Origin: an uncultured Neglectibacter sp.
Lineage (GTDB): Bacteria > Bacillota > Clostridia > Oscillospirales > Acutalibacteraceae
DNA length: 64,000 nt
Assembly (NCBI GenBank): GCA_946554335.1
Contig: CAMNSA010000010.1
Span: 1 to 64,000 of the forward strand
Direction: 5' to 3'
Part shown: piece after piece, positions 19,529-45,945 of the stretch
Layout of the letters: the number at the start of each line of letters is the position of its first letter
Numbering within the stretch: the stretch's first letter is position 1
Notes under the pieces: model-generated
Told to the model about the DNA's origin: nothing
Databases searched by the model: none
The model's input: only the letters and a program-made list of their open reading frames with translations
Made by a program: the position numbers and the translations under genes

Positions 19529-20419
19529 GTGACGCTGCGCCATATGAAGATTTTTGTAGCGGTATGCCGCGCCGGAAGCATCACCAAGGCGGGAAAAGAG
19601 CTGTTTTTATCCCAGCCCTCCGTGAGCCTGGCCATTTCCGAATTGGAGCAGAATTACGGGGTAAAGCTCTTTGACCGGATCTCCCAAAGGCTGCATATCA
19701 CGGAGGCGGGGAAAGAGCTTCTGCAATACGCGGAGCATATCGTGGGGCTGTTCGAGGAGATGGAGCAGGGCATCAAGAATTGGGACTCCTTAGGCAAGCT
19801 GCGCCTTGGGGGCAGCATCACCGTGGGGTGCCGCTATCTGCCGGAGGCGGTGCGGCTGCTCAGTAAAAAATACCCCTCCCTGCAGATCGAGGTGACCGTG
19901 GACAACTCAGACACCATCGAGCAGGGGATTTCGGAAAACCGTCTGGATGTGGCCGTTATTGAGGGAACGGTGCACAACCCCTATCTCATTTCAAAGCCTC
20001 TCCTGGACGACCGGCTGGTGTTCCTGTGCCCGAAGGATCACGCCTTCGCCGGGAAGGAAGAGATAGACCCTGCCCTGCTGCAAAGGGAAAACTTCCTGCT
20101 GCGGGAGAAAGGCAGCGCCGGACGGGAACGGGTGGAGGAGCTGGCCGCCGCCCAAGGCCTTCAGCTTCGCTCCTCCTGGGAGAGCATCAGCACTCACGCC
20201 CTGCTTCAGGCGGTACAGGCCGGGTTGGGCGTCTCCGTTCTCCCCTATCTTTTGGCGAAGGATTCCCTTAGGCGGGGAGAGATCTCCCTGTTTTCCGTCA
20301 AGGGCGTCTCCCTTTGGAGAAAGCTCACCGCCATCTATCACAAAAATAAATACCTCACTCAAAGCGCGTTGGATTTTCTCGCTCTCTGGGAGCGGCTCGC
20401 GCCGGAAGGCGGTTTTTAG
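19529..20419 (+). CDS. LysR family transcriptional regulator
   Basis: MTLRHMKIFVAVCRAGSITKAGKELFLSQPSVSLAISELE HTH; stop codon lies in heptad repeat. Confidence 0.95.
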   Translation: MTLRHMKIFVAVCRAGSITKAGKELFLSQPSVSLAISELEQNYGVKLFDRISQRLHITEAGKELLQYAEHIVGLFEEMEQGIKNWDSLGKLRLGGSITVGCRYLPEAVRLLSKKYPSLQIEVTVDNSDTIEQGISENRLDVAVIEGTVHNPYLISKPLLDDRLVFLCPKDHAFAGKEEIDPALLQRENFLLREKGSAGRERVEELAAAQGLQLRSSWESISTHALLQAVQAGLGVSVLPYLLAKDSLRRGEISLFSVKGVSLWRKLTAIYHKNKYLTQSALDFLALWERLAPEGGF

Positions 20420-20530
20420 TTTTTAGTCGTTAGTTTTTAGTAGTTAGTTGTTAGAGAAGGTCAAGGGAAAGGGCGTGCTCTTTCCCCTTGACCTTCTCTA
20501 ACAACTAATATCTAATATCTAACAACTACC
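20416..20530. repeat. Palindromic dispersed element: 6 heptads, 21-bp inverted repeat (20447-20467/20485-20505), inverted heptads
   Basis: GTTGTTAGAGAAGGTCAAGGG ... CCCTTGACCTTCTCTAACAAC read directly. Confidence 0.93.
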
Positions 20531-45340: not shown

Positions 45341-45899
45341 TTAGTCATTAGTCGTTAGTGGTTAGTTGTTAGATGCTGGATTCTAGATGCTAGATGCTGG
45401 ATATTAGACAGCCTGTCCTTGGCTCTCTCTGAGGAGGGAGGCAGGGGGAGCCAAGTGAGGGGCTGCGAACCGCAGGAATCCCTTGCCTCTCCCTACTCCT
45501 TACTTGCCTCTCCCTATGGGAGAGGTGGCATGGCGAAGCCATGACGGAGAGGGCGGCCTTTTAGTTGTTAGTTTTTAGTCGTTAGTGGTTAGAAAGGGCG
45601 CTCTTCTCGCCTACCGGCTCGGTTGCTGCATGCCAGTGGCATGCGTTCAGCAACGACCGGAGCGACAGCGGAGACCAGTTCGCACCAGCGGTCTCGCCTG
45701 CCGGCTCGATTGGGTCAGAACGATTGCCACCGGCAATCTTCCCCCCACAGGGACACGCTCTCTCGCCTACCGGCTCGGTCAGTTCGCACCAGCGTCCCAC
45801 CGGGACGCGCTCACCCCTCTCAGTCACCTTCGGTGACAGCTCCCCCAAAGGGGGAGCCAAGGCTCTTTCTAACGACTAATATCTAATATCTAACAACTA
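45341..45899. repeat. Composite repeat copy 1: 10 heptads, GAGAGG/GGCATGGCGAAGCC hairpins, 5 heptads, hairpin cassettes, inverted heptads
   Basis: 45341-45410 = TTAGTCA TTAGTCG TTAGTGG TTAGTTG TTAGATG CTGGATT CTAGATG CTAGATG CTGGATA TTAGACA; 19-bp constant blocks at 45605, 45692, 45761. Confidence 0.93.
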
Positions 45900-45945
45900 C
45901 CAAGAGGGAGAGCCAAAGGGCGGCTTTTCCTTCTTGCTTTTCCTT

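Follow-up and report, generated by a model that had tools for sequence, protein, structure and literature searches.

A repeat array in an Acutalibacter-group genome is probably a nest of copies of a small, mobile double-hairpin element

The window, the whole stretch of 64,000 nucleotides analyzed here, carries an array of short blocks and hairpins that the first-pass annotation described as a constant 19-bp block alternating with interchangeable hairpin cassettes. The blocks lie at 45605-45623, 45692-45710, and 45761-45779, the first and third being identical and the one at 45692-45710 89% identical, and the three 17-nt hairpins that had been listed are present at 45628-45644, 45722-45738, and 45792-45808. 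Across the 2.5-Mb genome the 19-mer, with up to two mismatches, is found 56 times and a reversed control pattern 0 times, so the array pattern is not due to chance. Folded as single-stranded DNA, the array stretch is 3.4 standard deviations better than dinucleotide shuffles. A CRISPR is excluded, as had been proposed: the blocks are spaced 87 and 69 apart, and what lies between them is again the same element. A known RNA family was also rejected, as no Rfam model matched the array at its gathering score and the chance-level matches (E up to 1) all lay outside it.

The plain form of the repeating unit was read from copies in other genomes, where units are often solitary. This unit of approximately 53 nt has the order TCTC, a 3-bp mini-hairpin with a TRYC loop, TCGGTC, the 5' arm of a 6-bp stem (P1), nnAC, a 7-bp stem (P2) with an ACY loop, and the 3' arm of P1 (P1'), and it ends directly 5' of CC. 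Variants of the P2 loop are ACC, ACT, and ACA, and the four bases between P1 and P2 are often, rather than always, nnAC. It follows from the plain form that the 19-bp block and the hairpin are parts of one unit, its leader and its P2, respectively. The short form aligns without gaps, and a longer form of 62-72 nt, common in Ruminococcus-like genomes, has an extra hairpin in place of nnAC. An alignment of 66 units shows invariant columns at TCTC...TCGGTC and at the terminal C's, and G or T immediately precedes TCTC in 96%. Because there are 0-2 extra bases, mostly G or T, to the left of TCTC, and because runs of C blur the right end, the ends can be placed only to within 1-3 nt. In one genome, two units of the long form (L115 6940 and L136 67) are cut at the same base of the extra hairpin (CTTCTCAGCCTGC), and the sequence after the cut differs between them. 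Truncated units such as that in L115 were considered as ends of an autonomous element, and no matching right half was found.

Read with this unit, the array resolves into four units, U1 split by the antisense U2 and by U3, followed by U4. A second, similar array that the first-pass annotation had missed lies 7.5 kb away at 53069-53262. The parts of both arrays, with the evidence for each, are as follows.

45605..45622, plus strand: 5' part of U1, leader TCTC-GCC-TACC-GGC-TCGG, interrupted by U2 (partial model match 45605-45648, 28.9 bits; excision test)
45622..45674, minus strand: U2, complete antisense unit in the U1 leader (model match 45620-45674, 57.7 bits, E 9e-13; excision test)
45676..45690, plus strand: middle part of U1, CAGTTCGCACCAGCG, the same as 45780-45794 of U4 (repeat comparison; excision test)
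45692..45742, plus strand: U3, complete unit lying within the 5' arm of U1 P2 (model match 45692-45746, 65.7 bits, E 8.5e-15)
45744..45760, plus strand: 3' part of U1, CCCACAGGGACACGCTC, the rest of P2 and P1' (excision test)
45761..45817, plus strand: U4, complete unit at the (A)CCCC end of U1 (model match 47.9 bits, E 2.5e-10; L254 compared with the empty L019)
53069..53086, plus strand: second array, leader of another unit, broken by an antisense unit (model match 53069-53112, 32.7 bits)
53086..53119, minus strand: second array, antisense unit without leader (model positions 20-53), P2 the same as that of U2 (30.2 bits)
53121..53175, plus strand: second array, complete unit, P2 GGCCTCC ACC GGAGGCC (73.2 bits, E 1.1e-16)
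53208..53262, plus strand: second array, complete unit, P2 GATTGCC ACC GGCAATC, nested in the P2 of another unit (CAACG..CCCCACCGGGG) (64.3 bits; L194 filled, L192 empty)

Each of the three hairpins first described is the P2 of a unit. The first belongs to U2, a minus-strand element that had gone unnoticed, and reads GCATGCC ACT GGCATGC on that strand; the second is the P2 of U3 (GATTGCC ACC GGCAATC) and the third that of U4 (GCGTCCC ACC GGGACGC). When the nested U2 and U3 are removed from 45605-45760, the copy that remains almost matches the first part of the unit at 45761. The antisense orientation of U2 and this excision test on U1 led us to reject the proposed swapping of cassettes, the block being instead the 5' end of each element, followed by the element's own hairpin. 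The apparent alternation thus arises because elements are inserted in one another, also in opposite orientation, and the nesting of U1 to U4 reproduces it down to the exceptional AGT loop, read as ACT on the opposite strand. The insertions of U2, U3, and U4 each adjoin (A)CC, and the site of U3 recurs elsewhere in the genome as filled and empty pairs (L191/L192 and L193/L254).

Other repeats occur in the window. At the contig start (1-95) stand five head-to-tail copies of a different 19-bp sequence (ATCATCGCCCTGCTCGCGG). Low-complexity TTAGT/TAGATGCTGG tracts flank the arrays (45341-45410, 45562-45592, 45868-45902, 20412-20530, and 52898-52960), often as inverted pairs such as 20424-20470 with 20482-20528 (85% complementary), and look like a separate repeat family bordering hairpin arrays. 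Further hairpin modules, CTCTCCCTATGGGAGAGGTGGCATGGCGAAGCCATGACGGAGAGGG and CTCAGTCACCTTCGGTGACAGCTCCCCCAAAGGGGGAGCC, recur beside units (45503-45553 and 53317-53367; 45819-45858) and are also insertion targets of the unit.

The pattern recurs throughout the genome itself and in related genomes. This Acutalibacter-group genome holds 98 covariance-model matches, partial ones included, and genomes of the genus hold from 0 to 219 leader matches each. In Acutalibacter sp. 1XD8-33 (G020), one stem variant occurs about 20 times, at different sites. Units of the same genome (L214-L250) also lie inside larger repeats with a covarying outer stem, its pairs being GTGGGG/CCCCAC, TTGGGG/CCCCAA, and CTTAGGGG/CCCCTAAG. 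A search of the order with a strict 55-nt pattern found few genera because the pattern required the short form; the covariance model found more, detecting the unit in 20 of the 223 genera sampled from the class Clostridia. Outside the class, a phylum-wide search returned one match below E 1e-3 (G965, 7e-7), the others being marginal. Seventeen viral contigs from IMG/VR carry the unit, all confirmed by the model. The units lie mostly outside long open reading frames (95 of 133), which cover 80% of the loci. A search for an orthologous empty site found that gene order around the array is not conserved in G028 and G007. A limited literature search turned up no earlier description of the unit sequence or of a comparable Clostridia repeat.

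The suggestion that structure rather than sequence is conserved is borne out by strong compensatory change in the stems. We assembled 66 distinct units, most of them picked by leader and spacing with pairing disregarded. Standard pairs fill 94.7% of cells in this set compared with 74.3% in shuffles and at most 49% in slid controls, and double-sided compensatory changes affect 13 of 16 pairs, in 210 cells compared with 59 in shuffles. A genome search in which the triplet of the mini-hairpin was left free (TCTCNNNTGYCNNNTCGGTC) recovered complementary triplets in most of the matches listed and none in the control, with at least six kinds of pair (GCC/GGC, ACC/GGT, GGC/GCC, CGC/GCG, GTC/GAC, and GAC/GTC). 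One-sided changes are nearly absent, and G-T pairs occupy just 5 of 944 cells (0.5%), whereas tRNAs of the same loci have them in 25 of 301 acceptor-stem and 23 of 185 T-stem cells (8-12%). This scarcity is more readily reconciled with a DNA hairpin than with an RNA; selection on RNA is expected to leave more wobble pairs, and an RNA reading is less favored for that reason. Watson-Crick pairs are restored in a single step when the template is switched between the arms of a hairpin (PMC8794818), and such switching, or selection on DNA hairpins, would give covarying stems that are poor in G-T. Near-absent G-T pairs beside massive compensatory change make the unit a clean case of stem upkeep at the level of DNA.

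Comparison of loci with and without the unit yielded 59 candidate filled and empty site pairs, which vary in quality, some being weak or ambiguous, and in which most empty sites are paralogous, not allelic. The clear ones fall in hairpin loops or arms. The clearest sites are GGCTTAGGGGCTCTG^CCCCTAAG, CCAAAGGCTCTG^CCTTTGG, and GAGGGGCTTCG^CCCCCTCC; another clear site, CGTGGCAACG^CCCCACCGGGGCG, is the P2 of another unit. Targets include palindromes such as GGGGCTCTG^CCCC. No target-site duplication is visible in the pairs, save for ambiguity inside runs of C, and at the two closing positions of the unit C is found in 96% and 94%. Of the junctions, 65% fall within a local hairpin, compared with 48% of other CC dinucleotides of these regions (a value as high was reached in 0 of 2000 simulations), and flanks pair with their own partner in stems of at least 6 bp in 24 instances, compared with a mean of 6 and a maximum of 13 when flanks were swapped (200 shuffles). 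One third of junctions are outside any predicted hairpin, and the excess is thus a preference for hairpins, not a rule.

Known RNA genes are among the targets. One unit interrupts the anticodon arm of a tRNA-Glu (L070 1973-2098) on a contig with many tRNA genes that is probably phage; ARAGORN called no gene there with the unit in place and tRNA-Glu(ttc) once it was removed. Another sits in the terminal loop of a Clostridiales-1 RNA (RF01699; L133 1-174). Partial tRNA 3' ends with units in the T-arm (GGCAGGGGCAGAAGGA..GAACCC; L062, L033, and L180) are themselves dispersed. Units are also inserted into their own copies, in both orientations.

Dispersal, covariation, insertion 5' of CC, preference for hairpins, and self-nesting are all directly supported, and we consider it probable that the array consists of nested copies of a small (approximately 53 nt), non-autonomous, mobile double-hairpin element. 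We propose that such a unit would move as a folded single strand of DNA, cut at its leader end and its CC end by a putative enzyme supplied in trans, and that it would insert at exposed CC/GG in hairpins of single-stranded DNA or of cruciforms. Template switching, in which each hairpin arm is recopied from the other, may keep its stems perfectly complementary. The unit is probably a selfish repeat, not a host function. No linked transposase was found for the unit, and the candidate movers examined (Y1 transposase and reverse transcriptase) do not track copy number.

Three other explanations bear on the same observations. A structured RNA copied through RNA and reverse-transcribed into new sites, perhaps at the loops of RNA hairpins, would fit the absence of target duplication, the compact junction-like fold with invariant single-stranded parts, and targets such as the tRNA anticodon arm and the Clostridiales-1 RNA loop. 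Allomyces double-hairpin elements also lack target duplication, and RNA intermediates were suggested for them for that reason, the way of moving being given as a suggestion only (PMC2800124). The 5 G-T pairs in 944 cells are unlike RNA stems, however, and the reverse transcriptase domain PF00078 was not found in the copy-rich G023, G026, and G025 (assemblies 85-86% complete), its presence being uncorrelated with copy number; we regard this route as unlikely. Somewhat less likely still is a REP moved as single-stranded DNA by a Y1 tyrosine transposase of the RAYT or IS200-IS605 type, with insertion 3' to GG on the opposite strand, which would account for the single-strand hairpin architecture with an unpaired foot and for a fixed short target without duplication. 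Against it, Y1 transposase (PF01797) occurs in 9 of 29 genomes of the genus and is absent from the genome of the array and from the copy-rich G013 and G023, none of the 8 Y1 loci examined has a unit nearby, and the conserved ends lack the GTAG and CGTC tags of the known REP super-families (PMC3733652). Y1 transposases, the usual candidate for hairpins of this kind, thus follow neither the copy number nor the position of units and are not supported as the mover.

The least probable of these explanations, in our estimate, is that the units are not mobile at all and are intergenic structured elements spread by repeat recombination or template switching, or else attenuators or terminators. Their position mostly outside long open reading frames and often in repeat-rich stretches agrees with this, but no T-run follows the unit, many near-identical copies occupy unrelated sites of one genome, and tRNA, ncRNA, and other units are interrupted with both sides intact.

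Among known systems, the double-hairpin elements of fungal and sponge mitochondria (PMC2800124) and the REP/REPIN repeats (PMC3116915, PMC3733652) appear nearest to the mobile unit in build and behavior. Like the mitochondrial elements, the unit is tens of nucleotides long, non-coding, repeated, and hairpin-forming, and consists of two hairpins joined by short unpaired stretches, with stems that vary while pairing is kept; those elements, too, occur in intergenic regions and RNA genes and have no known mover (PMC2800124). The unit differs in its conserved leader (TCTC..TCGGTC), which has its own mini-hairpin, in its fixed CC target, and in its frequent self-nesting. It is found in bacterial and viral contigs, and the likeness is one of build, not of descent, with no relation in sequence to be expected. 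With REP, REPIN, and BIME sequences the unit shares short, palindromic, extragenic copies in high number that differ greatly between relatives, and CGTC-type REPs are also without a known transposase (PMC3733652). Unlike a REP, however, it has two hairpins and a conserved leader of 20 nt, lacks a GTAG or CGTC tetranucleotide at the hairpin foot (the definition in PMC3733652), and, unlike REPs with a RAYT, shows no RAYT association in its genus. GTAG and CGTC repeats were reported from Proteobacteria, Cyanobacteria, Chloroflexi, Bacteroidetes, and others, and a word search of that text found neither "Firmicutes" nor "Clostridi" (PMC3733652).

The unit is small, non-autonomous, and dispersed, like a MITE. 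MITEs are small non-autonomous dispersed repeats, but no inverted copy of the leader stands at the 3' end of the unit, which is thus without terminal inverted repeats, and its filled and empty pairs show no target-site duplication. None of the defining features of REPs and MITEs (tags, RAYT link, terminal inverted repeats, and duplications) turned up in the unit. The attC sites of integrons are folded single-stranded recombination sites in which structure is kept while sequence varies, and their R' and R'' boxes have the consensus RYYYAAC / GTTRRRY. These boxes are absent from the aligned ends of the 66 units, where TCTC and CC are invariant instead, in agreement with the first-pass annotation that the array is not an obvious attC. 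Units also differ from integron cassettes in being nested, not tandem, with no open reading frame between them.

It is conceivable, though we hold this only tentatively, that the unit represents an undescribed class of bacterial and phage elements that targets hairpins and owes its movement, as a folded single strand, to an enzyme other than Y1/RAYT (possibly one of host replication or repair), or else moves through RNA in a manner like reverse splicing. If true, these would rank with the smallest bacterial mobile elements known to target structure. The unit, its ends, its CC target, and its preference for hairpins form a precise, testable model, and a bacterial counterpart with more than 100 copies in a cultured species would make the question of double-hairpin mobility approachable. 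For annotation, arrays of the unit explain repeat-rich intergenic stretches and spurious small open reading frames, and the unit interrupts tRNA and ncRNA genes. It is an abundant, patchy repeat of gut Clostridia that reaches their phages.
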